48,117 nt of DNA from positions 1 through 48,117 of the forward strand of contig CAJVXH010000005.1 in assembly GCA_913009835.1 (NCBI GenBank). The letters run 5' to 3'. Under the pieces are notes generated by a model that searched no databases, had not been told where the DNA came from, and saw only the letters and a list, made by a program, of their open reading frames with translations. Shown piece by piece: positions 26,960 to 46,605 of the stretch (the first letter of the stretch is position 1; every line of letters starts with the position of its first letter). This DNA comes from an uncultured bacterium (GTDB lineage Bacteria; Electryoneota; Electryoneia; Electryoneales; Electryoneaceae). The translations under genes and the position numbers were made by a program.

Positions 26960-27089
26960 GCAGGCTACAGGCTACAGGCCACTGAAAAACATGAAAATCC
27001 ACACACAGTAGTCAAAAGCCGACAGTTAGTAGCAGCGTTCTGAGAAATGTGTGACTGAGTACCTGTCCATTGTTTGATTGGGGTCGCTT

Positions 27090-28502
27090 ATGTACAGCAT
27101 CAACACTCGAGGTAGCACCGGAAACAGCCTGTCCGCCCAACTGGTTATGGCGCGCGATGCCCTTCTCGCGCATCAAAATCATATGAACACCATCAGCCAT
27201 AACGTGGCCAACGTCAGCACCCTGGGATATCACCGGCAACGCACCATACTGGGCGCTCGCCAGGGAAATCCGGGTGTCAACGGCATGTATGGCTCCGGCG
27301 TTGGTGTCCTAGGCATAGAACGATCGCAAGTAGCCTTCATCAGCAACCAGGAACGTCTGGATGCGAGCTTGACAGGCCGATGGTCGACTCAATATGACAG
27401 CATGATGCGCGTCGAAGAAGCGCTCAACGAAATCAGTGAAAATGGTATCGGTGGTGCGCTGGACGCCTTCTGGAATTCCTGGGAAGATCTGGCAAATGAC
27501 GCCGATTCCAGCGCCCTGCGAACTGATGTGATGAACAAAGCTGAAGACTTGGGATATGCCTTCGCATCAACCTACGGAAACATGGATTCCCAGCGGGAAC
27601 AGATCAATGTCCAGATGCGAGGACACGTTGAAGGAGTAAACCTGATCGCAGGCCGAATTGCCAACCTTAACCAGCAAATCGTTAGCCTGTCCACATCTGG
27701 TCAGGCTCCGAACGACCTGCTTGACCAGCGTGAACTGCTGCTGCGTGATCTCGCGACGTTGGTAAATATCAACGTCGAATTCGATGAAAATGGTGCGGCA
27801 AACGTATATCTGGGAAGCGAAGAGATCGTGCATCGCGACTCAAACAGGGAATTGAAATGGCAGGAAGCTGATGATCCCAGCATGGGTAAGGGAGCAGGCC
27901 GAGTAGTCTGGACTGACACCAAGCGGGAAGTGGATATCAGCGGCGGGATGATCTTCGGATTGCAGGAAACTCGCGACAAGATAGGCGAAATTCTTGGCGA
28001 ACTGGATTCTCTGGCCGACGTGATTCGAGATCAGGTGAATGGTATTCATGTTGAAGGCATCGGCCTTGATGGGACGACCGGGAATATTTTCTTCCGCGAC
28101 GATGTCAGTGGCGCACGATCGCTGGAAGTGTCTAATGAGATCAGGGAAAACGTTGATAAAATCGCTTCATCCCGAGTATCGCCGACGGGTGCAAACGACC
28201 TCGCACATGAGATGTTTGAATTACAAAACGCCACACCGTTCGGCAACAACCTGACGATCAATGGTAAATATCAGACGATGGTAAGCAATATCGGCAGCGC
28301 CACGCAGAATGCAGGTCTGCGTCTGGAAACTGCTCAAGCTGCGCTCGTTCAGACCGAGAACCTACAGCAGCAGTATACGGGCGTCAGCCTGGATGAAGAG
28401 ATGTCCGCCATGATTACTGCCCAATACGCCTTCACGGCAGCATCGAAAATCTTTAACGCCATTGATGAAATGATGGACACCGTGGTCAAAGGGCTCATTT
28501 GA
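27090..28502 (+). CDS. flgK: Hook-filament junction protein FlgK (HAP1)
   Basis: FlgK joins hook and filament. The N-terminal 'NSLSAQLVMARDALLAHQNHMNTISHNVANVSTLGYHRQR' and the C-terminal 'TGVSLDEEMSAMITAQYAFTAASKIFNAIDEMMDTVVKGLI' are the FlgK D0/D1 signatures. The total of 470 residues is short for the family, so the exposed variable domains are small. I chose ATG 27090 (GGGG upstream) over the TTG at 27078. The 130-nt gap after flgN holds a short CAGGCTA heptamer repeat (26961-26980) and no clear promoter. Confidence 0.93.
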   Translation: MYSINTRGSTGNSLSAQLVMARDALLAHQNHMNTISHNVANVSTLGYHRQRTILGARQGNPGVNGMYGSGVGVLGIERSQVAFISNQERLDASLTGRWSTQYDSMMRVEEALNEISENGIGGALDAFWNSWEDLANDADSSALRTDVMNKAEDLGYAFASTYGNMDSQREQINVQMRGHVEGVNLIAGRIANLNQQIVSLSTSGQAPNDLLDQRELLLRDLATLVNINVEFDENGAANVYLGSEEIVHRDSNRELKWQEADDPSMGKGAGRVVWTDTKREVDISGGMIFGLQETRDKIGEILGELDSLADVIRDQVNGIHVEGIGLDGTTGNIFFRDDVSGARSLEVSNEIRENVDKIASSRVSPTGANDLAHEMFELQNATPFGNNLTINGKYQTMVSNIGSATQNAGLRLETAQAALVQTENLQQQYTGVSLDEEMSAMITAQYAFTAASKIFNAIDEMMDTVVKGLI

Positions 28503-28520: not shown

Positions 28521-29459
28521 ATGAGAATCACTAACCAGATACGTCGTAACCAGATGCTTGTGGATTTGGAGCGACTTCAAACTGATCTGTACAAAGCACA
28601 GACAGTGCTCAGCAGCGGACGGGAAGTAGAACGTTCCAGCGATGATCCGATCCGAGCGCAACGGGCGATGGTTCTGCGCAGTTCTCTCGCTCAGCGGGGC
28701 CAGTACCTGGAGAACCTGAGGACAGGGATGTCACGCTTGAGCTTCGCGGAATCAATATTGATGTCGATTGATGATCTACTCGCGGAAGCACGCGCTGATG
28801 CGATTAAAGTCTCAAATGATCCCTCCATCCCGGCTGAAAAAGAAGCCGTTGCGCAAAGCATTAACGGACTTCTGGAAGAATTGCTCAGCAACGCCAATTC
28901 AAGACAGGATGGCGCCTACCTCTTCGGTGGGTTCAACACGCAGGAACCTCCATACGTGGCCATTCGAGATGAGGAAACCGGTGATATCACCCAGATAGTT
29001 GGAAATAGTACGCACATGGGTGGGAAAATCATGATTACTGCGGCAGACGATCTCTCAGTCCAGATAAATATGAATGGGAACGAGATGTTCCAAACCGGAC
29101 TGCCCGGTGACGAGGGAGATATGTTCCAGGCATTAATCGACATGCGCGACGCTTTACGCATCGAGAATAATGAGGAAGCAATCGCACTTCTTGAGAACTC
29201 CATTGGATTGATAGACAACTCATTGAGCAAGATTCACACCGGAATGACTGATCTCGGTGGACGGTATAATCGCCTGCTCTCAATCGAACAGAGTCACCTC
29301 GATATGGAAATTCGTGAAGAGGAGGATCTAGGGGAAGCTGAGGATGGTGAGCTGGCAGAGTGGATCACCCGTTTTCAACTACAGACTGTCGCATTGCAGC
29401 AGGCGATGGCAGTCGGGACTCAAGTCCTGAATTCATCCATCATTAACTTCATGCGCTGA
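28521..29459 (+). CDS. flgL: Hook-filament junction protein FlgL (HAP3)
   Basis: FlgL is the second hook-filament junction protein. The flagellin-like N-terminus 'MRITNQIRRNQMLVDLERLQTDLYKAQTVLSSGREVERSSDDPIRAQRAMVLRSSLAQRGQYLENLRTGMSRLSFAESIL' and C-terminus 'LAEWITRFQLQTVALQQAMAVGTQVLNSSIINFMR' fit FlgL. The middle has 'DGAYLFGGFNTQEPPY', a FlgL marker. At 312 residues it is typical. It begins 18 nt after flgK, with a GGGG-type ribosome site. Confidence 0.94.
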   Translation: MRITNQIRRNQMLVDLERLQTDLYKAQTVLSSGREVERSSDDPIRAQRAMVLRSSLAQRGQYLENLRTGMSRLSFAESILMSIDDLLAEARADAIKVSNDPSIPAEKEAVAQSINGLLEELLSNANSRQDGAYLFGGFNTQEPPYVAIRDEETGDITQIVGNSTHMGGKIMITAADDLSVQINMNGNEMFQTGLPGDEGDMFQALIDMRDALRIENNEEAIALLENSIGLIDNSLSKIHTGMTDLGGRYNRLLSIEQSHLDMEIREEEDLGEAEDGELAEWITRFQLQTVALQQAMAVGTQVLNSSIINFMR

Positions 29460-29466
29460 GACCAAC

Positions 29467-31650
29467 ATGACTGATAACACAACACTCAACAATGATCTCG
29501 CTGAATTGCTGGCACGTTTGCAACCAGATGGATTCGTTCTGGACGCACGCAACGGTAAACCTGATCTGCTGTCGAGTCTACACTGCCTTCCAACTCTTGG
29601 TGAACGGGGGAGGATGGAGGAAGCCAAACGTGTGACGCAAGCCGTCCTGGATGCCCGCGATGAAGAGGGCGGCTGGGATGAAACCTGGACGACAGTTATA
29701 GGCGTGGAAGCTCTGGTTGCACTCAAACTGCGCAATCTTCCCATAGATGGCGTAATGAATGCCCTGGAATTTGCGGTGAGCAGCCTGCGCTCAGCCACAC
29801 CATTGTCGCCGATGGAGCGAGAACTCCGACTGGCAAGGGCATTGGTCCTTTCCGGGATGGCGAGAAAGGATTCGACACTAATTGATGCTGGCATTCTACG
29901 CATCCATGGACTGCTCGACACTACCAGTGATTGGTCGGGAGAGATATCTGAAAACCTGCATGGTCTACTCAGCCTGGTTGATCTGTTGACTGTTAGCAAA
30001 GACGCAAATACCAGGGAGTTGATTGAATCGAAGATTGCTGAAACAAATATGGCGAACGTGAAAGCATGGGCCCATGGCGCGGATGAATGTGTCAGAGCGC
30101 GAGCTGGGATTATCCTGTTCAAACTGGGACGCCCCGAACCAGCAAATGAACTGCTCATCCTGGCGACTATCACACCTTCGGCACGATGTGACACTATCAC
30201 CCTTAAACACAGAATTGAACTCGCCGTGCGTTTGGGTATATCCGAGAATTCACCTGAAGAGAAGAGCATAGTTGGAGAAGCTGAGAGCGTTTTGAACAAC
30301 GGCTTGAATGATCGCTCGAAGGAAAGTCTTGATGAAGAGTTTACGCCGGTCGTTTCGAAAACTGGTGAGGATTCTTCTATGAAACATTTGTCGTTTTCAG
30401 ATGCCGAAAGATCTCTTCTGCTGCTTGAGGAGCTGCCTGGATTCTGGGTAGATCATCCTGATGCAGCCCCGATGAAATCCGTGAAAAAAGGTGTATTGAC
30501 ACAGTTACGTGCGGAAGTGTCTAACAAGTGGAATCAGGCTAACCGTCCACTCGTCAGCCTCATTCTCTTCATGGAGAAGGTGGACGAAAAAATCGCACCA
30601 TTTGTGCAAAGCATTCTCGAAAATACAAATGAAATTCCATTTGAAGTGGTTGCCTGCCTGCCCGGAAGTTCAAACGAAACGCTCGAGCGCATTCTCGATG
30701 AAGTTGGTGCGTTGACAGTGCAATCCAACGAAGGCGAAACCCGTCATCAGGTTATGCACCGCGCGGCAAAAGAAGCGAACGCGCCATACTTGGCATTGCT
30801 GAGAGTTTCTGATGAGATAACGCCGGGTTGGTTGCGGAAAGCGTTCGCTGAGGTCATGGATCAAAGCCGCGAAGGCAACTCTATTCACCTCGTCCGAACG
30901 GAAGCGTTTGACCCTGAAGATTTCATGGCGCTGCCATCCGAAACTGTGGCGCAGGATCATCAAGGTGGAAGCATAGCTGATATGCTGGTGAGAGCTGATA
31001 CCTTGATCAAGGGCGGTGATTACTCTGATGCGGAATCCGAATTACTTGATATGCAGTCCAGTTTGAATGGGTGTAAACACGAGAATGTCACCTTCTGGAC
31101 ACTACTGGGGGATGCAACTTTCCGTCAGAATCGCCCGAAAGAGGCCTATGAATGCTATTGCAAGGCGGTCAAAGATGACGCTTCCGCCGAACGAGCATGG
31201 ATAGGAATTGGTGCCTATCACCTGATCAGCGAAGAGCTGGAAGAGGCTCATTCAATATTCAACCGAGTGACATCGCTGAATCCAATTAATTCGCGTGGTC
31301 ATCTCGGACTGGGCAACACCTTCCTCAAGGAAGACAAACCGGCAGAAGCGATACCACATTTTAAAGAAGCCTTGCGTATTGATTCAGGGTTCCGCCACGC
31401 AGTAATCGGATTGGTAGCAGCAGCGGTGCAAGCCGAGAAAATGGAAGACGCAATCCAAGGCCTGACAAGCTACCTCAATGAACGCCCGGAAGATGTGGAA
31501 GTGCGTTTTCATCTGGCAGCGATCTATTTCGGTACCAATGAAATCAAACTGGCCAGTGAACACGCTATAAAAGTACTGAAGGTGAACCCAGATCATTCCG
31601 GTGCCCAGCAGATAATGAGTCATCTCACTGGCTCAGCACAAACCGGCTAG
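29467..31650 (+). CDS. GT2-like/TPR multidomain protein of the flagellin glycosylation island
   Basis: The 727-residue protein has three parts. Residues ~1-300 are helical repeats, with 'EEGGWDETWTTVIGVEALVALKLRN' resembling alpha/alpha toroid segments. Residues ~360-490 resemble a GT2-family GT-A fold ('LVSLILFMEKVDEKIAPFVQSILENTNEIPFEVVACLPGSSNETLERIL... YLALLRVSDEITPGWL'), but the usual DxD/DDD metal motif is not visible, so activity is doubtful. Residues ~540-727 are TPRs ('AYECYCKAVKDDASAERAWIGIGAYHLISEELEEAHSIFNRV' and following). It starts 7 nt after flgL with a weak ribosome site, and three or four glycosyltransferase genes follow. It could be a scaffold or inactive transferase. Confidence 0.6.
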   Translation: MTDNTTLNNDLAELLARLQPDGFVLDARNGKPDLLSSLHCLPTLGERGRMEEAKRVTQAVLDARDEEGGWDETWTTVIGVEALVALKLRNLPIDGVMNALEFAVSSLRSATPLSPMERELRLARALVLSGMARKDSTLIDAGILRIHGLLDTTSDWSGEISENLHGLLSLVDLLTVSKDANTRELIESKIAETNMANVKAWAHGADECVRARAGIILFKLGRPEPANELLILATITPSARCDTITLKHRIELAVRLGISENSPEEKSIVGEAESVLNNGLNDRSKESLDEEFTPVVSKTGEDSSMKHLSFSDAERSLLLLEELPGFWVDHPDAAPMKSVKKGVLTQLRAEVSNKWNQANRPLVSLILFMEKVDEKIAPFVQSILENTNEIPFEVVACLPGSSNETLERILDEVGALTVQSNEGETRHQVMHRAAKEANAPYLALLRVSDEITPGWLRKAFAEVMDQSREGNSIHLVRTEAFDPEDFMALPSETVAQDHQGGSIADMLVRADTLIKGGDYSDAESELLDMQSSLNGCKHENVTFWTLLGDATFRQNRPKEAYECYCKAVKDDASAERAWIGIGAYHLISEELEEAHSIFNRVTSLNPINSRGHLGLGNTFLKEDKPAEAIPHFKEALRIDSGFRHAVIGLVAAAVQAEKMEDAIQGLTSYLNERPEDVEVRFHLAAIYFGTNEIKLASEHAIKVLKVNPDHSGAQQIMSHLTGSAQTG

Positions 31651-31659
31651 GTGCAGCGG

Positions 31660-33078
31660 ATGCGCTCCCAACACACAGGGATTCTGCAACTCGCCAGGTT
31701 TGGCGATCTGATCCAGACCTCACCTCTGATTCAGCAGGTCAAACGGATGCGTCCCAATGCATCCATCTGCCTTTTCGTAGACGCTCGCACCAAAGCCGCC
31801 GCAGAAATCATCGATGGAGTTGATGAAATCGTACCCATCGATCTGTCAAGGCGCCCGTGGCCGGTAAAGGCATCACTCGCCCAGCAAACGTTAGACAGTC
31901 TGGAATGGCAGAAGTCTTTCGCTGACCGTGATCCTCTGGACAAGCTCATCATCCTCAACCAAGACCCCATTTCCGGCGCTATTGGCGAGTTGATTCCGGC
32001 AACAGAACGCCGTGGTCCACGACTGCGCTGTGTCCTGCCCGCACCACACCGATACCTCACACTGGCGGTGCAGGATCGCAAGTACAACCCGATCCATCTG
32101 TGCGAAATCTGGGCTGCCTACAGTGGTAACCGAAACCCGGTACCCTCCCCAATATTAGCGAATAATGCACTCGGCACAGGCTTTGCCATGATAGAGGGGA
32201 GAGATAGACCTAGCTCTATGAAATTCAAGCGTTTCGCTATCAATATGGGTGCGAAAGCGGCAGGAAGACGTCCGCCATGGGAAAAGCTTGCCGAGATCGC
32301 CAGTCAACTGCTGGATTCTGGTGATTGTCGGATCGTGCTGTTGGGGATGGATGAAGATCGAGCATCAGCGATGAAGATGATCCGTTCGATGCCTGAATCC
32401 CAACGAGAACGGATTATTGACCTTTGTGGCGAGACGACTTTGCAGGATCTGCCCGGTGTACTCAGTGGATGCGATGTCCTGATAAGTAGCGACACCGGCA
32501 CCCTGCAACTGGCTTCAGCGACTGGAACGAGGTGCATCGGCCTGTTCATGGCGGGTGCGAATCCGGTGGAAACGGGGCCGTATGCGGAAAACGCTATAGC
32601 CGTGGTGAGGCGAGACACGCTTGATTTCAACGAACAACAGCGGGACGATCTGAACGATCTGCCTGTGAGAACTATCGTTTCAATCGCAAGCAACCTTGCG
32701 AATAGGGAAGAGCCTGACGGGAGAAACATAGATGCAAGCAATGCCTTCGCTGTGCTGGTGGCCAGACCTGACGCTGTGGGTATCCGCTATTCACCCCTCA
32801 ACAAAGAGGATAGCGTACCGCTCGGTCAGGGGGAACGATGGTTGCCTTATCTCCGACGACTCATCAACCACGAAGCCTTCAGGCCCAGTGGTGAACAAGT
32901 ATTACGAGCTGAACTCGATGAGCAACAACTTGACGTTCTCGAACGATTGATTGCAAGGCCCGATACAGCGTGCACAGGCGAAGAACGCTGGTTGGGTAGT
33001 ATCGCCCAGGCCTTCGTGAGGGAGACGATGGGCCTGTTAAACGCAAAGCATGAATCAGCAAAGTTGCATCGGAGCTGA
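31660..33078 (+). CDS. Glycosyltransferase family 9 protein (heptosyltransferase-like)
   Basis: The N-terminus 'ILQLARFGDLIQTSPLIQQVKRMRPNASICLFVD' matches the GT9/ADP-heptosyltransferase start (R-x-GD..l..PL...L). The C-terminal nucleotide-sugar half has 'CDVLISSDTGTLQLASATGTRCIGLFMAGANPVETGPYAENAIAV', the D-T-G-t.hLA motif of the family, here with GTLQLAS. The substrate cannot be determined; in this position it probably helps build a glycan on flagellin. The start is taken as ATG 31660 (AGGTG 6 nt upstream). GTG 31651 is an alternative. About 90 residues after the transferase core have no clear match. Confidence 0.82.
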   Translation: MRSQHTGILQLARFGDLIQTSPLIQQVKRMRPNASICLFVDARTKAAAEIIDGVDEIVPIDLSRRPWPVKASLAQQTLDSLEWQKSFADRDPLDKLIILNQDPISGAIGELIPATERRGPRLRCVLPAPHRYLTLAVQDRKYNPIHLCEIWAAYSGNRNPVPSPILANNALGTGFAMIEGRDRPSSMKFKRFAINMGAKAAGRRPPWEKLAEIASQLLDSGDCRIVLLGMDEDRASAMKMIRSMPESQRERIIDLCGETTLQDLPGVLSGCDVLISSDTGTLQLASATGTRCIGLFMAGANPVETGPYAENAIAVVRRDTLDFNEQQRDDLNDLPVRTIVSIASNLANREEPDGRNIDASNAFAVLVARPDAVGIRYSPLNKEDSVPLGQGERWLPYLRRLINHEAFRPSGEQVLRAELDEQQLDVLERLIARPDTACTGEERWLGSIAQAFVRETMGLLNAKHESAKLHRS

Positions 33079-33079
33079 C

Positions 33080-33385
33080 ATGCAATTGAGCTATTTACGG
33101 AAGCGCATAATCATGAACAAGGTGCCAGAAGAGATTGGTTTCGGGTCAGCCTCCGATAACCGGATAAAGGTGGCAGGGACACCGTATTCCATCTTTGTGC
33201 ACGCATCTCCCATTTACAAAACAAGCGAGCTGGTTGCCAAGCGTAGTGCACGACCGGGATCTCGTCCCCACGGACGACCGAACCGTATCCTCCCGCTGCG
33301 TCCCGATGGTTACCCATATGCAAACCGACGCTGGAGTGGACGGCTGGGGATGAAAATATCAGATAGCAGTGAGGAGGCGGCATGA
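33080..33385 (+). CDS. Small basic protein of unknown function in the glycosylation island
   Basis: No family is recognised. The 101-residue product starts right after the GT9 stop, with GGAG upstream, and overlaps the next ribosome site and start by 4 nt, as operon genes do. It is rich in Arg, Gly, Pro and Ser ('KRSARPGSRPHGRPNRILPLRPDGYPYANRRWSGRLGMKI'), with no membrane helix. An alternative ATG is at 33113. The reading frame on the opposite strand is a shadow. I am unsure that it is expressed. Confidence 0.45.
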   Translation: MQLSYLRKRIIMNKVPEEIGFGSASDNRIKVAGTPYSIFVHASPIYKTSELVAKRSARPGSRPHGRPNRILPLRPDGYPYANRRWSGRLGMKISDSSEEAA

Positions 33386-34995
33386 ATCTGCTTCTGCTCA
33401 ACGATACCTATTTCGGGTCAAACCTGGAAGAGGCCGATGTTAACGTACTTCGCATCGGGGTCACAGAAGACAACGATATCGTTGTTGACCCTGCTCAGGA
33501 TGATATCTCAGAAGTTATTGCCAAGCTCGGTTTTCCAGCGGATGTAGTGCTTCAAGTGGACTGCATTGACAGTCGCGTATTCTTCAAGGGACTGGAGAAA
33601 ATTAAGGCTCCGCGCGCGTTCTATGCAATTGACGGTCCGATAAACGACTTCTGGCAACACGACTACTCTTACATGTTCGACCTGGTCTGGACAGATCAGG
33701 CGGCAATAGAGGATGCCTGGCGGAAAGATGGTATTCACTGGGCGCATTGGCTACCACTGGCAGCTGATCGCTCAATCTATTACCCACCGAATGATGAAGC
33801 CGAACGTGATCTGGACGTCGTTTTCGTCGGAACAATGGACTTCGCTCACCGACCGAAACGTTCAGCAATCCTCCACCGCCTGAGACAGATCGCGGACGTC
33901 ACCCTGATTGATGGTAGCGGTCAACGATCCGTGCAGCCCGACGAAGTGGCTGACTACTATCGTCGCGCGAAGATCGTGCTGAACGAACTCCTCTTTGACG
34001 GTATCAACCTGCGCACCTTCGAAGCGATGGCCTGCGGGGCTGTCCTCCTGACAGAAGAAGGACGAGGAGAAGATAAACTCTTCGTTGAAGGGCAACACCT
34101 GGTCGGTTTCAACGCTCGCAACCTTGAGGGTGTTGTCACTGACATTCTCAGCAATTCTGGGAAACAACGCGGTATCTCTGAGAATGCGACTGATGTTATT
34201 CGTGCTAATCACTCCATACAGCACCGAGCGCGTAAAGTTCTGCGTGAACTGTCCAGTCTAAAACCTCGCATAGACAGGGATACCTCCAAGCATCAAGCGA
34301 TGGCTGACTGGGCAATGTGGATGGCTTCCTGGAAGTGGAAACACTTTGAAAGCTTGCGACATGATGCCGCAGAACGATTGGTTGACAACTTCGACCAGCT
34401 CGATCCGGCGCGACAGACCATCTTCCTGGAAGGAGTTGGTCAGGCTGAACAGGCTCGAGATTATTTGAAAGAGCTACTCGCCTCCGGCAAGGCCAGCCCC
34501 TCGCTGAAACCGGTTCTGGCAAGCCTGGCATTGTCTATCGGTGATGAGGAGACAGCGACTGAAGCGCTGGATATGCCAGATGCCAACCGTATGGCCCTGC
34601 ATCTGAACACTGCTGATCGACTGCTGGCCCTGGGAAAGGATCTGACACCGGGATTCAACCGTTTGCAGGCACCACGCAGTTCCTGGAATGCCTTTGAACA
34701 CTACCAGATTGCCTATTCGTTCGATGAGAATTGTCGGGAAGCCCTGGAAGGCATGGACAAGGTGCTGATCAAGCACCATTCACCAGAGTTCATGCTGCCA
34801 CTATGGCAACGATTCCACTCAAACAATCCCAAGCAGAACGATGTGGAACGATTGCTGATCCGACGCGCAAAATCAGGATATTTCATCCCCGGCAAGCAAA
34901 CTGGAGGTGGAAAGAGCAGCCGCCCTTTCTCGAGCTCATGGCAACCTTCTTCGAGGTCGGAAACTCCCTTGGAACCGAGGAGGCGGATGGGATGA
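33382..34995 (+). CDS. CgeB-family glycosyltransferase with C-terminal helical repeats
   Basis: Residues ~1-300 match the CgeB/Glyco_trans_1_2 type. 'PRAFYAIDGPINDFWQHDYSYMFDLVWTDQAAIEDAWRKDGIHWAHWLPLAADRSIYYPP' is followed by 'LDVVFVGTMDFAHRPKRSAILHRLRQ' and 'NLRTFEAMACGAVLLTEEGRGEDKLFVEGQHLVGF', the GT-B sugar-nucleotide end. The next ~200 residues are helical, TPR-like. The last ~35 residues (GGGKSSRPFSSSW...) look unlike the rest; see the possible frameshift finding. A GAGGAGG precedes the ATG. The stop overlaps the next ATG by 4 nt. Confidence 0.8.
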   Translation: MNLLLLNDTYFGSNLEEADVNVLRIGVTEDNDIVVDPAQDDISEVIAKLGFPADVVLQVDCIDSRVFFKGLEKIKAPRAFYAIDGPINDFWQHDYSYMFDLVWTDQAAIEDAWRKDGIHWAHWLPLAADRSIYYPPNDEAERDLDVVFVGTMDFAHRPKRSAILHRLRQIADVTLIDGSGQRSVQPDEVADYYRRAKIVLNELLFDGINLRTFEAMACGAVLLTEEGRGEDKLFVEGQHLVGFNARNLEGVVTDILSNSGKQRGISENATDVIRANHSIQHRARKVLRELSSLKPRIDRDTSKHQAMADWAMWMASWKWKHFESLRHDAAERLVDNFDQLDPARQTIFLEGVGQAEQARDYLKELLASGKASPSLKPVLASLALSIGDEETATEALDMPDANRMALHLNTADRLLALGKDLTPGFNRLQAPRSSWNAFEHYQIAYSFDENCREALEGMDKVLIKHHSPEFMLPLWQRFHSNNPKQNDVERLLIRRAKSGYFIPGKQTGGGKSSRPFSSSWQPSSRSETPLEPRRRMG

Positions 34996-36833
34996 ACAGT
35001 CCGTTGCAGAAAAATGTGAAAGCTCTGCATGAACGTGGATGGGATAGCCTGGCAGCGCTGGCTGAAAGTGAAGCGACCTCCGAAAGGATTGAGGTCGTTG
35101 AAGCACGCTCAGGAGTGCCATCTCTCACGTTTGACGGACGCGCTCTACATTCGCTATACAACCCTGAACGCGAAGCTCTTCAGACGGTCGAAAAACTTAG
35201 CGAAGATCTTCCGGAGGCAGCATCGGTGGTTATCGTCGGTCTGGGGCTGGGATACCTCGCGGAAGCGTGGATGCGCGTTCGTGACGCAGATCGCCTGTTC
35301 GTTATCGAACCCGATGAGGGGATCGCCCATCTTGCACTCAACACCAGAGATCTGAGTGAATTGATTCAACGGGCAACGCTGTATGTCGGTCAGGATGGTG
35401 TCGAAAATCTCGCCAATGATCTGAAAGAATCGGGTCTTGCAAATGGTTCATCACCATTCATATTTGAGTGGCCCAGCATCCGAGAGTATGCCCCCGAAAT
35501 CAGCAAACAGTTACAGCACAAGATGGCTGCCACCTTACCCGGATCGGATGAACAAAAATTGCGGATTCTGGTTGCCGGGCCGGTTTACGGCGGCACCCTG
35601 GCGATGGGACAGTACGTGACCAGCGCCTTCGAGGAACTCGGTCATCACGTCGAATTGTTGGATTATTCAGCATTTGACGAAGGCCGGAAACTTCTGGACA
35701 CCCTGAGCGACGTGAAAGATGAACGCAATCATCTGTTGAGTGATCTGACCCGTTTGCTGGGCCGAGGGATTGTCGCAAAAGCAAAGTCGATACAGGCGCA
35801 GATCGTATTCTTCCTCGCGCAGGCACCGGGTACCAAAGAGACGTTGAAGGCTCTGCGTGATGAAGGAATCACCACTGCCATGTGGTTCGTCGAAGACGCT
35901 GAACTGGCGAACTGGTGGCCGCAGGTAGCACCCGATTACGACCTGTTTTTCCACATTCAGGGCGAGGCGTTTACTAAGGTGTTGCAGGAAAACGGAGTCC
36001 GTTGCGCGCATTATCTGCCAGTGGCGGCTGACCCGAATGTGCACCGTCCTCTCGACCTGACCCCTGACGAAACCGCGCGTTATGGCAGCGAACTGAGTCA
36101 TGTCGGGGCGGGATATTTCAACCGTCGGCGGTTCTTCCTCAACCTCCTCAACTATGATCTCAAGCTCTGGGGAAATGATTGGGAAGAGGCAACCGGTCTG
36201 CAAACTGTGCTACAGGATGATGGTCGACGAGTTTCGACTGAGGAAACGGTTCGCATATTCAACGCCACCCGAATCAACATCAATCTCCATTCGTCCACCT
36301 ACGCCCAGGGCGTAAACCCGCACGGTGATTTTGTCAACCCGCGCACCTTCGAGCTGGCGGCTTGCGGAGCGTTCCAACTGGTCGATAAGCGATCCCTGCT
36401 CGCAGAAATGTTCGAGCCCGGTAAAGAAATTGCCGTATTCAGTGATCTCGATGAATGCAAGTCGCTCATTGAACACTATCTGGCTCATCCCGAAGAAGCG
36501 AACAGCATTGCCCGGGCGGGACGGACGCGGGTTCTGCGTGATCACACCTACACGCACAGAATGGCTGAAGCTATCCGAGTGTTGTGTGAAAACACCAGCA
36601 TTCAACCGGTGAAATCGTCAGGGAATACCGTCGCGGAAATGGTAGCAGCGGCTGGTGATGATGCGGAACTGGCTGAGTTCCTGAAGTCAATTGGCAATGC
36701 TGAAAAAACACTCACCCTCGAACACATAGCGGATATAATCCGAAAAGGTGAAGGAGCATTGTCACGCCCGGAAGCCCTGTTCCTGCTGATGAACGAGTTC
36801 CAACTCAAAGCTGAAGAGAAGGGGCTCACATGA
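34992..36833 (+). CDS. Maf-N/CgeB fusion glycosyltransferase
   Basis: The first ~140 residues resemble the N-terminal domain of Maf flagellin-modifying proteins: 'SGVPSLTFDGRALHSLYNPEREALQTVEKLSEDLPEAASVVIVGLGLGYLAEAW', with GLGLGYL at 83-89, and 'RLFVIEPDEGIAHLALNTRDLSELI'. From residue ~191 (RILVAGPVYGG) on it is a CgeB-type GT-B transferase with 'NPRTFELAACGAFQLVDKRSLLAEMFEPGKEIAVFSDLDECKSLIEHYL' and 'RDHTYTHRMAEAI'. The DUF115 core that normally follows Maf-N is absent. I chose ATG 34992 (GAGGAGG ribosome site, ATGA overlap). Residues 550-613 are helical. It probably modifies flagellin. Confidence 0.78.
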   Translation: MNSPLQKNVKALHERGWDSLAALAESEATSERIEVVEARSGVPSLTFDGRALHSLYNPEREALQTVEKLSEDLPEAASVVIVGLGLGYLAEAWMRVRDADRLFVIEPDEGIAHLALNTRDLSELIQRATLYVGQDGVENLANDLKESGLANGSSPFIFEWPSIREYAPEISKQLQHKMAATLPGSDEQKLRILVAGPVYGGTLAMGQYVTSAFEELGHHVELLDYSAFDEGRKLLDTLSDVKDERNHLLSDLTRLLGRGIVAKAKSIQAQIVFFLAQAPGTKETLKALRDEGITTAMWFVEDAELANWWPQVAPDYDLFFHIQGEAFTKVLQENGVRCAHYLPVAADPNVHRPLDLTPDETARYGSELSHVGAGYFNRRRFFLNLLNYDLKLWGNDWEEATGLQTVLQDDGRRVSTEETVRIFNATRININLHSSTYAQGVNPHGDFVNPRTFELAACGAFQLVDKRSLLAEMFEPGKEIAVFSDLDECKSLIEHYLAHPEEANSIARAGRTRVLRDHTYTHRMAEAIRVLCENTSIQPVKSSGNTVAEMVAAAGDDAELAEFLKSIGNAEKTLTLEHIADIIRKGEGALSRPEALFLLMNEFQLKAEEKGLT

Positions 36834-39709
36834 AAATCGCGGTGCTCGCATTAAGCCGAATGGGTGACATACTGCTCAGCTATCCACTGCTGGACAGACT
36901 CCGTGAACTCAATCCGGCTAGCGAACTACATCTGATCGTTCCGAAGAGTTTCGAGACTGTCGGGATGGGTCTGGATGTGGACTGCGTGCACACGATTAAC
37001 AATGATCGCTTGATTCTGAAAGCTGCGGAACGACCTCCGCATCTCGAACTATACAAGGAAGTTCAGCTTGAGCTGAATGACCTGCTGAATGTCGAGTTCG
37101 ACCAGGTAATGAACCTGGGCTACGATACCCTGTCATCGATAATCAGCTACATGCTGCGGGGTCAAGTAGTCGCCGGGCAATATCTGGATGCGCAGGGACA
37201 AAGACGGATCGCCACCGATTGGGCCCGGATGACAATGACCTCACATCTGGCCCGTGGACTGAATCCTTTCCACCTCGCAGACCTTCAGAAAGGATTCGCC
37301 GGATCACACAGCAGCATCGTGCGGCCTCTTCATTTTTCCATCCCCGATGAGGCAAATCACCGAGCTGAATCCTTGTTGAGAGAATCCGGAGTAGGCAACG
37401 ATGGCAGCCCGTTGATTGTAATTCAGGTGGGAGCGTCTCATCCGAGCAAACGTTGGGACGAAGAATCGTTTGGTCAGACTGCCAGAATGCTTCAGGAATC
37501 CATCGGTGCGACCACGGTCTTCTGCGGGGTTCCCATTGAAATGCCTCTGGTAGAAACGGCGATGCGCTCTGCCGGTACCAAGGCAATCAACCTCGTCGGT
37601 CAGACCGACATCCCGGTTCTAGCGGCTATCCTCGCGCGGGTGAAACTCGTCATCAGCAACGACACCGGCACCATGCACCTCGCCCAGGCAGTGGGCACAC
37701 CAGTGCTCTGCCTGACAACTGGCAACGCCCTCTCCCAGGAAACGGGTCCGTACGGCGAAAACAACCTGGTAGTCGAACCACAACTCGCTTGCTACCCCTG
37801 CGATTTTCAGGTGCAATGCCCGCATTTCAATTGCCGCCAGTCATTCAGCCCGACCCTGGTCGCAAAACTGGCCGTGGACATGCTGGAAAATGCTATCCCG
37901 GATCATTACGAGATCGAAGATGCATCCGTAATCATTTCACGAACCGGATTCGATGAAAACGGCTTCTGGCATTTGAAAAGGCTTGCGGGGCCTGTCAATC
38001 GCATGGATTCGCTGCGAAATCGCTATCGAAGCATACTGTCAGAACGTTTCGGAGTGGTGAACGAGACGGAAGTTGAGACGGCCAGAACTGTTGAACTCAG
38101 CGAACAAGATCGAGCGATCAGCATCAGGCTGCGCGATGTCGCCATGCGCGGTGAACACAGCTGCGTCACCCTGTTGAACCTTCTCCAGGCTGATCCAGAC
38201 CCTGAGAACACATCCGCGCTCGCAGGCCAGATAGACGACCTGCAAGATCAGGTTCTCAACGGATTTCTCCAGGCTGAGTTCTTGCATCCGTTGCTGGCAT
38301 TGTTCCGTTTCGAGCTGGAAAACCTCTCAGACAGCGACGCCGTCAAGCAGATAACCGGGACACAGGCAGCTTTTCAACGATTGGCGACATCGGTAGCTCT
38401 GCTCACTCAGGGCAATGATGTCAACGACTATCAATCAGCACTCAGCAATGAACCAATCGAGACGCGTGAGCTGCTGGAGGCTTCACCCCCAGAGACAAAT
38501 CCACCGTCGCTGTATGACCGGTTCCGACGTCCACGTTTCCGCAGCGAGCGCCTGACCGTCATCCTTCTCGAGAGCGATTACTACCTTCAGTGTGAAATCC
38601 GTGCCGCTTTGCTGAGAATGGGGCATCGAGTGATGTCGATCCGTTACCTGGAGAGTGGCAATGTTATCGAACAGCTATTGCTCGCCAGCATGGAAGCGGA
38701 TCTGTTGATCACGGTAAATCATCTCGGTTTTGACGAAGATGGTGAGCTGGCCGCCCTGCTGGAAAAAATTGAGCTACCCTATGTGTCCTGGTTTGCCGAC
38801 CGTCCCCAATATATCCTGCTCGATCACAACGCTGCAGCCGGGGAAATGGCGCACCTGTTTACCTGGGAGAGATTGACCATTCCCGAGTTGATCGGTTATG
38901 GTTTCGAGCGCGTGGAATACCTGCCTCTCGCCACAGACGAGACGGCTTTCGCTTCACATTCGACAAAGAATGAACCATTGCGCGGGCCATGCTGGGTAGC
39001 GAACTCGATGGTTGAGCCAGTAATCGAGTGGGAACGAAGGGCAAATGTTCGCTCCGCACATCAACCCGTTCTGAGCATGGCGATAGAGGACTTGCTCGAT
39101 GCGCGATGTGATCCATGGGACGCTCTCAACGAAGCAATCAAGCAATACCCCGTCCTGACGCAAGATTGGACACACGGTGACAAATTGCGCATGGCGACGC
39201 TGGTGGCGTTTCGCGCAACTCGCGAAGACAGAAAACGTATCGTGCAGATCTGCCAGCCATTGGGGTTGGAAATAACTGGCGATGAGGGATGGATGGAATT
39301 ATTCCCTGATCTGAAACTCAATGAACCAATACACTATGGACCTGAATTGGCCGCTTATTACGCTAATTCCATTCAACTGAATAGCACCAGCTATCAGATG
39401 CCCAGCTCGGTTAACCAGAGGGTATTTGATGTGCCCTGCGCGGGCGGGATTTTGCTCACTGACGAACAGAGTGACATTCACGAATTGTTTGACTCAGAGA
39501 CTGAATGCATCACCTATCGCACTCCTGAGGAAGCTGGCGAGAAAATTCAGTATCTGCTCTCGCATCAGGATCTGGCGATGAAGATCAGCGAAAAGGCTCG
39601 CAGGCGAATTCTAGCCGAACACACCTACACACAAAGAATACAAACGATACTTGACGTGGTGCGTCAACAACATTCGTGTGCGCACACCGTCTGTAAGGAG
39701 GCAAGATGA
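36830..39709 (+). CDS. GT9-CgeB bifunctional glycosyltransferase fusion
   Basis: The 959-residue protein contains two transferase modules. Residues ~1-350 are GT9/heptosyltransferase-like ('LALSRMGDILLSYPLLDRLRELNPASELHLIVPKS' and 'VKLVISNDTGTMHLAQAVGTPVLCLTTGNALSQETGPYGENNLVVEPQLACYPCDFQVQCPHFNC', with the C-x2-C...C cluster). Residues ~570-950 are CgeB-like ('LTVILLESDYYLQCEIRAALLRMGHRVMSIRYLES', 'FDVPCAGGILLTDEQSDIHELFDSETECITYRTPEEAGEKIQYLLSHQDLAMKISEKARRRILAEHTYTQRIQTIL'). A long helical linker joins them. It overlaps both neighbours by 4 nt. It is likely to add two sugars in sequence, though that is inference. Confidence 0.8.
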   Translation: MKIAVLALSRMGDILLSYPLLDRLRELNPASELHLIVPKSFETVGMGLDVDCVHTINNDRLILKAAERPPHLELYKEVQLELNDLLNVEFDQVMNLGYDTLSSIISYMLRGQVVAGQYLDAQGQRRIATDWARMTMTSHLARGLNPFHLADLQKGFAGSHSSIVRPLHFSIPDEANHRAESLLRESGVGNDGSPLIVIQVGASHPSKRWDEESFGQTARMLQESIGATTVFCGVPIEMPLVETAMRSAGTKAINLVGQTDIPVLAAILARVKLVISNDTGTMHLAQAVGTPVLCLTTGNALSQETGPYGENNLVVEPQLACYPCDFQVQCPHFNCRQSFSPTLVAKLAVDMLENAIPDHYEIEDASVIISRTGFDENGFWHLKRLAGPVNRMDSLRNRYRSILSERFGVVNETEVETARTVELSEQDRAISIRLRDVAMRGEHSCVTLLNLLQADPDPENTSALAGQIDDLQDQVLNGFLQAEFLHPLLALFRFELENLSDSDAVKQITGTQAAFQRLATSVALLTQGNDVNDYQSALSNEPIETRELLEASPPETNPPSLYDRFRRPRFRSERLTVILLESDYYLQCEIRAALLRMGHRVMSIRYLESGNVIEQLLLASMEADLLITVNHLGFDEDGELAALLEKIELPYVSWFADRPQYILLDHNAAAGEMAHLFTWERLTIPELIGYGFERVEYLPLATDETAFASHSTKNEPLRGPCWVANSMVEPVIEWERRANVRSAHQPVLSMAIEDLLDARCDPWDALNEAIKQYPVLTQDWTHGDKLRMATLVAFRATREDRKRIVQICQPLGLEITGDEGWMELFPDLKLNEPIHYGPELAAYYANSIQLNSTSYQMPSSVNQRVFDVPCAGGILLTDEQSDIHELFDSETECITYRTPEEAGEKIQYLLSHQDLAMKISEKARRRILAEHTYTQRIQTILDVVRQQHSCAHTVCKEAR

Positions 39710-40314
39710 TCAACGTAAAACTCAACGGCGATGATGTGTTGTTTGATCATCCGGAAGCGAGTACCATCGCTGATGTTGTCGGTACCATTGCACAGGAGTT
39801 GGAGCAGGACCTGCGCATTGTCAAGGTCAGCTATAACGGCGAAGACATCTCCGGAAAGCCTGAGCGTCACCTCGATCTACTCAATGGCGACAACGTTTTC
39901 GAACTTGAGACCACAAGAGCTGTTGACCTGGCTAACGAAACCCTGGAAAGCATTACCGAATTTCACGGGGCCGTCGTGAAAGAACTGAGCCGGACTGTGG
40001 AAACGTTTCGTGCCGGTAGCTTTGAACTGGCCAACGAACAGCTGCTGCGTTGTCTGGATGGATTGCAAGTTCTGACCAGAACAACCCATTCGGTCGGTAC
40101 GCTGTACCAGGTTACAGCTGTCGATATACAGGCGGGACAGCAAAATCTCGAGAAGTTGACCGAGAAGATATCCAGCATTCTCGAGGAGATGGTCCAAGCC
40201 CAGGAAAACCGTGACGGAATCCTGCTTGCCGACCTGATCGAGTACGAGCTGCAAATGCTTCTCGAAGACTGGAATGTAGCGCTGGAGTACATGAAAACTC
40301 TGGGTGCTGTATGA
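39706..40314 (+). CDS. Beta-grasp-like plus helical protein next to flagellin (unknown)
   Basis: No family is recognised. The first ~68 residues ('MINVKLNGDDVLFDHPEASTIADVVGTIAQELEQDLRIVKVSYNGEDISGKPERHLDLLNGDNVFELET') look like a beta-grasp/ubiquitin-like fold. The remaining ~130 are amphipathic helices ('VVKELSRTVETFRAGSFELANEQLLRCLDGLQVL... LEKLTEKISSILEEMVQAQENRDGILLADLIEYELQMLLEDWNVAL'), chaperone-like. A very strong GGAGGCAAG precedes the ATG. It is coupled by 4-nt overlaps to the GT fusion and to the next gene. Flagellar export chaperone or assembly factor is a reasonable guess only. Confidence 0.65.
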   Translation: MINVKLNGDDVLFDHPEASTIADVVGTIAQELEQDLRIVKVSYNGEDISGKPERHLDLLNGDNVFELETTRAVDLANETLESITEFHGAVVKELSRTVETFRAGSFELANEQLLRCLDGLQVLTRTTHSVGTLYQVTAVDIQAGQQNLEKLTEKISSILEEMVQAQENRDGILLADLIEYELQMLLEDWNVALEYMKTLGAV

Positions 40315-40715
40315 GCGAACAGAACACACGACGGATGCTGCTCGAAAATCTGTATCAGCTGACAAAGCTTGCGCTGCGGCAAGCTAAGATCGAGTATGTC
40401 GAAGCCCTGAATTCAACTCTGGCCGAACGAGAAACAGTTCTGGCAACCATGTGGGGGTACGATCCGCAACAGGGATTGCCCGAGATTGCACCTGACAGCA
40501 AGCTGGTTAAGAAACCTGAACCGAATGCTGAGGATAATGAACTGTTTGAAGAGATTCGTGATCTGGACCGTCAACTGGTGTCAGTTCTCAAGCATAACAT
40601 GAATAAACTCAATGACGAAAAATTGCGGCTCAACAACGGTCAGAAGTACATGAACGATGTTCGCGATGTATACAAGAGTATCTCCAAGAGCCGCTATCTC
40701 GATCACGTTGGTTGA
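40311..40715 (+). CDS. FliT-like helical protein, possible flagellar chaperone
   Basis: The 134-residue product is helical, with 'LLENLYQLTKLALRQAKIEYVEALNSTLAERETVLATMWG' at the N-terminus and 'DRQLVSVLKHNMNKLNDEKLRLNNGQKYMNDVRDVYKSISKSRYLDHVG' at the C-terminus. The small size, helical character and place just before fliC-fliD-fliS are like the FliT/FlgN chaperone group, but no signature residue proves it. It overlaps the upstream gene by 4 nt. A stem-loop lies downstream (40759-40795). Confidence 0.6.
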   Translation: MSEQNTRRMLLENLYQLTKLALRQAKIEYVEALNSTLAERETVLATMWGYDPQQGLPEIAPDSKLVKKPEPNAEDNELFEEIRDLDRQLVSVLKHNMNKLNDEKLRLNNGQKYMNDVRDVYKSISKSRYLDHVG

Positions 40716-40995: not shown

Positions 40996-41829
40996 ATGAG
41001 TACGCGCATCAACCATAATGTGCTCGCTCTTACAGCCCAGAGGAGTATTCACAACACGCAGAATGATCTGGACACAGCGCTCACGCGTCTGTCGTCAGGA
41101 CTCCGTGTGAATTTCTCATGGGATGATCCGGCCGGTCTGGCCGTGAGCGAAAGGTTCCGTGCACAGATCGCTTCGATGGACGAGGCGGAACGTAACGCGA
41201 ACTACAACATCAACCTGTTGGCCACCGCTGAAGGTGCGCTTCAGACCATTGACTCTACACTGGTCAGGATGCGTGCTCTGGCTGTGCAAGCGTCTAACGG
41301 CGCGCTGACATCTGAGGATCGTACCTACCTCAACACGGAATTCGGCCAACTGCGTTCGGAAATTACCCGAATCGCAAACACGACCAACTACAACGGTCTG
41401 TATCTGCTGAATGGTAGCCTGTCGTCAACCGGTGTTAAGTTCCATATTGGTACTTACAACACCGCAAACAACGACTACTACTACGTGACCCTGAACGGGA
41501 TGAGAGGCTCGGATCTGAGCATTGACAACTTGGCGCTCTCTGACACCAGCGGTGCCCAGTCAGCCATCACAGCACTGGATAGCGCGATCACGACCAAGGA
41601 CACAGAACGTACACGTATCGGTTCCTATGTCAATCGTCTTCAGAACACAGTTCTGAACCTGCAGATTCAGCGTGAAAATGCTACTGCATCCGAATCGCAG
41701 ATCCGTGACGCTGACATCGCTGCCGAGATGAGCAACTTTGTACGTGCACAGATTCTGATGTCGACTGGCGTATCCATGCTCGCACAGGCCAACCAGATCC
41801 CGCAGATTGTCGCTGGACTCGTAGGCTAA
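40996..41829 (+). CDS. fliC: Flagellin FliC (short type)
   Basis: Flagellin polymerises to form the filament. The N-terminus 'MSTRINHNVLALTAQRSIHNTQNDLDTALTRLSSGLRVNFSWDDPAGLAVSERFRAQIASMDEAERNANYNINLLATAEGALQTI' and the C-terminus 'IRDADIAAEMSNFVRAQILMSTGVSMLAQANQIPQIVAGLVG' are D0/D1 signatures. At 277 residues the outer D2/D3 domains are missing, with only a small loop (about 145-185). It is preceded by a sigma-28 promoter and followed by a strong terminator. Its neighbours suggest that it is glycosylated; the loop has many Ser, Thr and Asn. Confidence 0.96.
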   Translation: MSTRINHNVLALTAQRSIHNTQNDLDTALTRLSSGLRVNFSWDDPAGLAVSERFRAQIASMDEAERNANYNINLLATAEGALQTIDSTLVRMRALAVQASNGALTSEDRTYLNTEFGQLRSEITRIANTTNYNGLYLLNGSLSSTGVKFHIGTYNTANNDYYYVTLNGMRGSDLSIDNLALSDTSGAQSAITALDSAITTKDTERTRIGSYVNRLQNTVLNLQIQRENATASESQIRDADIAAEMSNFVRAQILMSTGVSMLAQANQIPQIVAGLVG

Positions 41830-45930: not shown

Positions 45931-46605
45931 ATGAGTCTTGAAAATGAGATCTCGATATGGTCCTATTTACCAATGATAGTATCAGGGATAATCGTTGGCG
46001 TTGTTCTATTTATGATAGATGCCATAATAAAGAGAATATCTCGAAATAATGTTAGGAGAGTGAAAGATCAGGAACACAATACTAGCATATTGGATCAAAT
46101 ACATGAAAATTCTATTATACTAGATAGAGCTAGAGAAATAGTCGTAATAGACATAAAAAGAGCTGGCCAATATCCTAATTATAATATTAAGTCAATAGGA
46201 GTTTCTAGTTCGTTAAAGATTGGTTATGTTGGGGCAGGATCGGTCAATGGAGTTGAATTATTAATCCAACATCCGTTGCCATTTATTTATGATTCTGAAA
46301 AGAGGTGTTATGTACATAAACTGAATGATAGTAGTACTGATACAAGTGTTACTCTATTTCCTATCGGAACGATAGCGTTAGAATCGATAGAACATATCGA
46401 TTGGAATGGTGATGAATACGAGGGGTTACCAAGGTTCTTCGTGAATTATAAAAGATTCGGAAAGGGCCCGTGGAGTAGAATTGAGTATTGTGAATCACAG
46501 ATGTCTAGGGGACGATATCATTACACTAAAGTCAGATATCCTGTACTAGTTCAGATAAGAAAATGGGGATACCCGCGCTGGCGCAAGTATCCCTATATAC
46601 TCTAG
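45931..46605 (+). CDS. AT-rich orphan membrane-anchored protein
   Basis: No family is recognised. The 224-residue protein has one N-terminal membrane helix (WSYLPMIVSGIIVGVVLFMID), a charged 'IIKRISRNNVRRVKDQEH' stretch and a soluble beta-rich C-terminal part ('VGAGSVNGVELLIQHPLPFIYDSEKRCYVHKLN'). The gene is visibly richer in A and T than all its neighbours (e.g. about 27-33% GC in 46021-46140), with AT-ending codons, which points to recent transfer. It is convergent to the biotin carboxyl carrier gene and preceded by a doubled AGCGCATAGTCTA (45867-45892). Confidence 0.6.
   Translation: MSLENEISIWSYLPMIVSGIIVGVVLFMIDAIIKRISRNNVRRVKDQEHNTSILDQIHENSIILDRAREIVVIDIKRAGQYPNYNIKSIGVSSSLKIGYVGAGSVNGVELLIQHPLPFIYDSEKRCYVHKLNDSSTDTSVTLFPIGTIALESIEHIDWNGDEYEGLPRFFVNYKRFGKGPWSRIEYCESQMSRGRYHYTKVRYPVLVQIRKWGYPRWRKYPYIL

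Follow-up and report, generated by a model that had tools for sequence, protein, structure and literature searches.

The window, as we call the whole analyzed stretch of 48,117 nucleotides, belongs to a contig that carries the flagellar cluster of an uncultured Electryoneaceae bacterium, whose genome of 3.6 Mb is 86% complete. All genes of the cluster are on the plus strand, in the order FlgN, FlgK (27078-28502), FlgL (28521-29459), a glycosyltransferase island, FliC, FliD, FliS, and FlgM. An earlier note on this DNA had placed the island between flgL and fliC, and the genes are indeed located there: the interval 29467-40715 consists of seven co-directional large and small genes, annotated here as A to G, and one further small gene. 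The note spoke of four large proteins, a count that disagrees with its own list of five. Gene A (29467-31650) encodes a 727-aa protein with a truncated, degenerate GT2 remnant and C-terminal TPR repeats. It is followed by gene B (31651-33078, GTG start), whose 475-aa product is a GT9 protein (PF01075, 63.6 bits) with orthologues in order in relatives, by the small gene (33050-33385), and by gene C (33382-34995), which encodes a 537-aa CgeB-type transferase (Glyco_trans_1_2; PF13524, 73.1 bits). Gene D (34992-36833) encodes a 613-aa protein that combines Maf-N with a DUF3880/CgeB GT-B transferase, and gene E (36830-39709) a 959-aa fusion of a GT9 (PF01075, 89.3 bits) with a DUF3880/CgeB unit (PF13524, 92.1 bits). 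Pfam bears out the transferase families assigned earlier to B (GT9), C (CgeB), D (CgeB), and E (GT9 and CgeB). The last two genes encode a 202-aa protein with a predicted beta-grasp and four-helix bundle, a candidate GlfM-like acceptor factor (gene F, 39706-40314), and a small helical protein of 134 aa (gene G, 40311-40715). The proposed acceptor is a 277-aa flagellin with Flagellin_N and Flagellin_C matches in Pfam, encoded by fliC at 40996-41829.

The genes are closely packed, with 4-base overlaps at the C/D, D/E, E/F, and F/G junctions, FlgL/A and A/B almost abutting, and the 303-bp gap between B and C occupied by the small gene. The true start of this 111-aa ORF possibly lies further in. 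We regard it as a real gene on the strength of its core, which four relatives within the window's family (G001, G002, G004, and G005) share in the same place, at 41-80% identity, and which was not found in the remaining loci examined. The product carries the motifs TPYSIF..SPIY and LP.RPD.YPYA, which occur in the window's own family only. Gene G is also restricted to this family, with orthologues in four relatives; it matches Pfam FliT with 13.9 bits, under the cut-off of 29.5, and is perhaps FliT-like. By Pfam, FliC has N- and C-terminal helical regions only, which agrees with its earlier description as domain-poor, and residues 141-191 include 13 Ser/Thr. Two consensus patterns gave no sigma-28-like site upstream of fliC, and sigma-70-like and terminator-like sites occurred at a frequency at chance level. 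Two more flagellin genes, possible further acceptors, are present in tandem elsewhere in the same genome (G000:C15:28128-30084). Within the window, a 224-aa ORF without a Pfam match follows a DnaJ gene (45931-46605).

Gene A had been read as a GT2-like/TPR protein. The TPR part of this description holds (60.9 bits); a working GT2 does not, with 13.0 bits against a Pfam cut-off of 23.3. Relatives of A with a complete GT2 score 86.5 bits (L066) and 122.9 bits (Electryonea) and contain the motifs DNGS, NNDT, and FEDVDF. In G005 the GT2 is degenerate (42.1 bits). The copies of the window's genus are truncated and without the three motifs, with the 13.0 bits of the window copy and no match in G001. 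The TPR repeats are strong in all of these relatives. We infer from this comparison that A is a TPR adaptor that has lost its own catalytic part, and we propose that it holds flagellin. FlmG of Caulobacter, which consists of TPR and GT-B and whose TPR domain binds flagellin (PMC7591256), resembles A in combining TPR with a transferase domain in the context of flagellin. Unlike FlmG, A carries its TPR repeats C-terminally, and its transferase part is a degenerate GT2 in place of the GT-B. A GT-B of the FlmG type in A was ruled out, as the transferase part is derived from GT2.

Protein D and its family

The ORF of D had been listed with a start at 34731, which overlaps C. The likely start is the ATG at 34992, which is preceded by AGGAGG and gives a 4-bp overlap with the C stop. 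In Pfam, the window copy matches DUF3880 (32.1 bits) and CgeB (142 bits), and its match to Maf_flag10_N (PF20157) of 22.0 bits is slightly under the cut-off of 23.5. Across 42 aligned D proteins, DUF3880 and CgeB (PF13524) are present in every member, Maf_flag10_N is present in 34 (E<=0.01), and the Maf core PF01973 is absent from all 42 by Pfam. In the window's own genome, PF01973 appears only as a sub-threshold match outside the island. The protein is conserved over its full length, with ~70 invariant columns distributed over both halves in 21 members of the phylum. The model of D has a mean pLDDT of 91, and a Foldseek comparison with solved structures returned GT-B transferases of family GT4 (best E 4e-11), so that structure prediction gives D the GT fold that the earlier note expected. 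The Magnetospirillum Maf structure 5mu5 was matched as well (E 1.1e-7). In hhalign, the D profile and the true Maf of family f4 matched with 98.6% probability, convincingly over the Maf-N part only. In family f4, D is directly preceded by the gene of a true Maf that has the PF01973 core, and in three genomes (G009, G021, and G034) a true Maf is present and D is without Maf-N. A Maf-core match was also observed within a 1622-aa ORF of G006. D resembles Maf (e.g., Aeromonas caviae Maf1; structure 5mu5) in its Maf-N domain, its flagellar location, and, probably, its cytoplasmic action on flagellin. It differs in that a GT-B CgeB half takes the place of the core PF01973.

D is present in 34 of the 41 genomes searched. 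With D alone as the query against genome contigs nothing was found; an alignment-based scan of 84,980 species, with one genome per species, yielded 233 stretches with D, and the best 80 of these come from the Electryoneota group, Nitrospirota, Desulfobacterota, other Deltaproteobacteria, Nitrospinota, and Latescibacterota. Among named genomes, Candidatus Electryonea clarkiae has one of the closest relatives, and Tariuqbacter, LCP-89, and genomes named Calditrichaeota have relatives further off. By this protein and by kinship among the genomes compared, rather than by a tree of marker genes, the window is assigned to the Electryoneota group. The D tree is in agreement with this and has 6 label changes by phylum, where the minimum possible is 4 and the shuffled mean is 20.7. 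Based on this grouping, which is largely by phylum, the D family looks old and appears to have descended mostly vertically. As judged from these sequence searches, D represents a widespread family and is no peculiarity of this one genome. The earlier note was right that D joins Maf-N to CgeB without the Maf core; its view of the architecture as unusual gives way to that of a standard ~600-aa family found in several phyla.

The GT9 partner and fusion protein E

A GT9-type gene comes immediately after D in 77 of 80 named loci, and the ends of the two genes mostly overlap or touch. In the window's own family, this GT9 is fused to the CgeB protein, which gives E, and in most of the remaining phylum the GT9 (~580 aa) and CgeB (~430 aa) are separate neighboring genes. 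The two-transferase fusion pointed out earlier is present, and it joins two genes that are adjacent in most relatives. Such fusions and splits among the GT9, CgeB, and Maf-N parts suggest that the parts work together.

Several variants of this arrangement were observed. The Tariuqbacter lineage has very large fusions (L079 14071-18312 and L072 3747-7931); in L079, radical SAM constitutes a third domain in addition to GT9 and CgeB. A radical SAM domain attached to a transferase of a flagellin island points to an additional modification, either of the sugar or of flagellin. A Latescibacterota protein (L076 7990-11559) contains GT9 and CgeB, with a Maf-N match between them, in a single chain. In G003 (L031 1186-3890), the E protein is 479 aa long and has seemingly lost the GT9 core, and the recovered D is without Maf-N; these losses could be either real decay or an assembly fault.

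The close association of D with a GT9 bears on which enzyme acts first. In the main rival to a reading in which D sets the first sugar, a GT9 (B or the GT9 half of E) would set the first protein-linked sugar, possibly heptose, and D would elongate it, with Maf-N being a relic. No other partner of D is as constant as GT9, GmhA-like genes are present in the genome, and GT9 enzymes are able to modify proteins, as exemplified by TibC (PMC4358343). However, Maf-N is retained in 34 of 42 D proteins, and E departs from TibC in its cysteine spacing and in its PDB matches. TibC-type autotransporter heptosyltransferases are GT9-like and have a cysteine cluster, as does E, and TibC modifies a protein. 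The cysteines of TibC are residues 339, 342, 358, and 370 (PMC4358343), whereas the pattern in E is CX2CX5CX4C, and the best solved relatives of the E GT9 half are 3tov and HepII 1psw. A TibC-like iron finger in E was ruled out by the cysteine spacing and the lack of a match. We consider it unlikely that a GT9 acts first and favor D in that position. As for the donor, the island itself contains no donor-synthesis gene. The genome has four NeuB matches (PF03102) and the GmhA-like genes, all of which are outside the window, and neither donor is favored as a result.

Protein F and the link to flagellin

F, which the earlier note left among the small unknown genes, is probably the most informative of these. 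No family in Pfam or NCBIfam corresponds to F, and its model (mean pLDDT 95) has no match among solved structures in the PDB at E<=0.001. The model predicts a beta-grasp of the ubiquitin type and, after it, a four-helix bundle. Four residues, R102, D170, D176, and Y180, do not vary among 28 sequences. F is located after the D-GT9 pair in 58 of the 69 loci with enough DNA. Nitrospirota mostly have a shortened F that lacks the beta-grasp. In Nitrospinota, F was not found downstream of D; in four genomes of this phylum (G052, G056, G057, and G059), F and a flagellin-like gene are in head-to-head orientation and D is elsewhere. Plasmid searches using F gave no match, and a plasmid search using Maf led to a Paenibacillus locus that links F to Maf. 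Two true Maf proteins of Paenibacillus cellulosilyticus are matched over their first 130 residues by the profile of the F bundle, with 29.6 and 22.0 bits against 11.8 for the best reversed decoy (hhalign 95.4%), and are arranged as F-like bundle, Maf-N, and Maf core. This fusion to the N-terminus of Maf ties F to Maf-type glycosylation. Family f4 also encodes F together with a true Maf.

By analogy, F is probably a GlfM-like factor that presents flagellin to D. GlfM is reportedly a four-helix bundle with an essential Asp, and F is predicted to be alike in having such a bundle with an invariant Asp. The F bundle is homologous to the N-terminal domain of a Maf from Paenibacillus, and F is set beside GlfM by description. 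F differs from GlfM in its N-terminal ubiquitin-like domain and in its usual partner, a Maf-N/CgeB enzyme. As far as the account of this Maf-2 factor by Unay et al. 2024 is conveyed in PMC13317340, GlfM shares with F its small size and its co-encoding with a transferase.

A different role for F has to be weighed, namely that of a flagellin export chaperone or regulator which travels with the island and is not a glycosylation factor. Four-helix bundles are common among flagellar chaperones, and F is just upstream of fliC in this phylum and beside flagellin in Nitrospinota. However, the same clusters contain a separate fliS, F comes after D-GT9 at loci without a neighboring fliC as well, and the bundle is fused to Maf in Paenibacillus. 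We regard a chaperone or regulator as improbable and retain the GlfM-like role.

Membership in a GT family says nothing of the acceptor, and, with FlgL and FliD in the same cluster, synteny alone cannot single out flagellin. Across the phylum, the genes keep their order with respect to flgL and fliC, which indicates that the arrangement is not due to chance. The association with flagellar loci that the earlier note relied on extends throughout the phylum. In Nitrospinota, D is away from flagellin, and every such genome tested has flagellin. Further evidence comes from co-occurrence. A Flagellin_N match is present in 34/34 D-positive genomes (raw counts, shared ancestry included), and, of 7 D-negative genomes, five are without such a match, one has a 76-aa fragment, and one has a match of FlgL strength. 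All 22 genomes from other phyla that were chosen for D have flagellin and F (kinship uncorrected), and flagellin is <25 kb from D on the same contig in 10 of them, ~45 kb away in 1, and on another contig in 11. Taken together, the link of the operon to flagellin is well supported.

These data also bear on the idea that the genes serve the synthesis of a surface polysaccharide or lipopolysaccharide, their placement in a flagellar cluster being positional only. The GT9 and CgeB families are also found in polysaccharide and LPS pathways, and many further CgeB genes lie outside this locus in the genome. On the other hand, polymerase, flippase, and lipid-carrier genes were not found in the island, the position relative to flgL and fliC is constant across the phylum, D tracks the presence of flagellin, and F and Maf-N are both Maf-linked. 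We consider a polysaccharide pathway very unlikely. The original interpretation of the locus as a flagellin-linked transferase island is upheld, without the unusual fusion and without GT2 activity of A, and a transferase chain that builds an O-glycan is possible.

Proposed route of flagellin glycosylation

Our current hypothesis, to which we assign a probability of roughly two in three, is that the operon serves O-glycosylation of flagellin in the cytoplasm, with acceptor-handling parts of the Maf type working for a GT-B transferase. D would be the flagellin glycosyltransferase, composed of the Maf N-terminal Rossmann-like domain and a GT-B (CgeB, GT4-like) half that replaces PF01973. F and the Maf-N domain of D would bring flagellin to the GT-B half, with F presenting flagellin to D in parallel to GlfM for Maf-2, and A, its GT2 activity lost, would provide a TPR-based hold on flagellin. 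Among known systems, Maf-1 uses a TPR domain and Maf-2 requires GlfM (PMC13317340). The GT-B half of D would then set the first sugar on flagellin, and B, C, and E, with their GT9 and CgeB units, would extend it, E acting as two joined transferases. Glycosylation would take place in the cytoplasm before chaperone binding, for which Maf provides the precedent (PMC4065374), and the modified flagellin would be handed to FliS and then exported. In this scheme, we infer flagellin as the acceptor, the first-acting enzyme, the order of the steps, the donor sugars, and all protein contacts.

Flagellin glycosylation islands that adjoin flagellin are already known. In Enterobacteriaceae (PMC4875605) and Clostridium (PMC13317340), transferase genes are inserted beside flagellin, as is the case here. 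Those islands vary between strains, whereas here the order and D are conserved in the phylum and donor-synthesis genes are absent. What is new is the Maf-N/CgeB enzyme together with the Maf-linked bundle factor. In the literature searched, the scope of which mostly did not extend to subscription papers, no paper combining flagellin glycosylation with CgeB was found.

More tentatively, and with somewhat less than an even chance of being correct, the proposal may be extended to at least five phyla. These would have kept Maf-N and a GlfM-like factor and swapped the nonulosonate-transferring Maf core for a GT-B CgeB in tandem with GT9, so that flagellin in Nitrospirota, Nitrospinota, Desulfobacterota, and Electryoneota would bear a glycan that does not come from a Maf core. 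If this is true, flagellin glycosylation in several abundant, mostly uncultured lineages would use an enzyme family that has no specific name, and the unannotated small-protein family F beside flagellin would gain a likely role. Recognition of flagellin by the transferase would be testable in cultured Nitrospirota or Desulfobacterota. Maf itself would be a modular machine, in which the catalytic part is exchangeable and the flagellin-handling part is constant.
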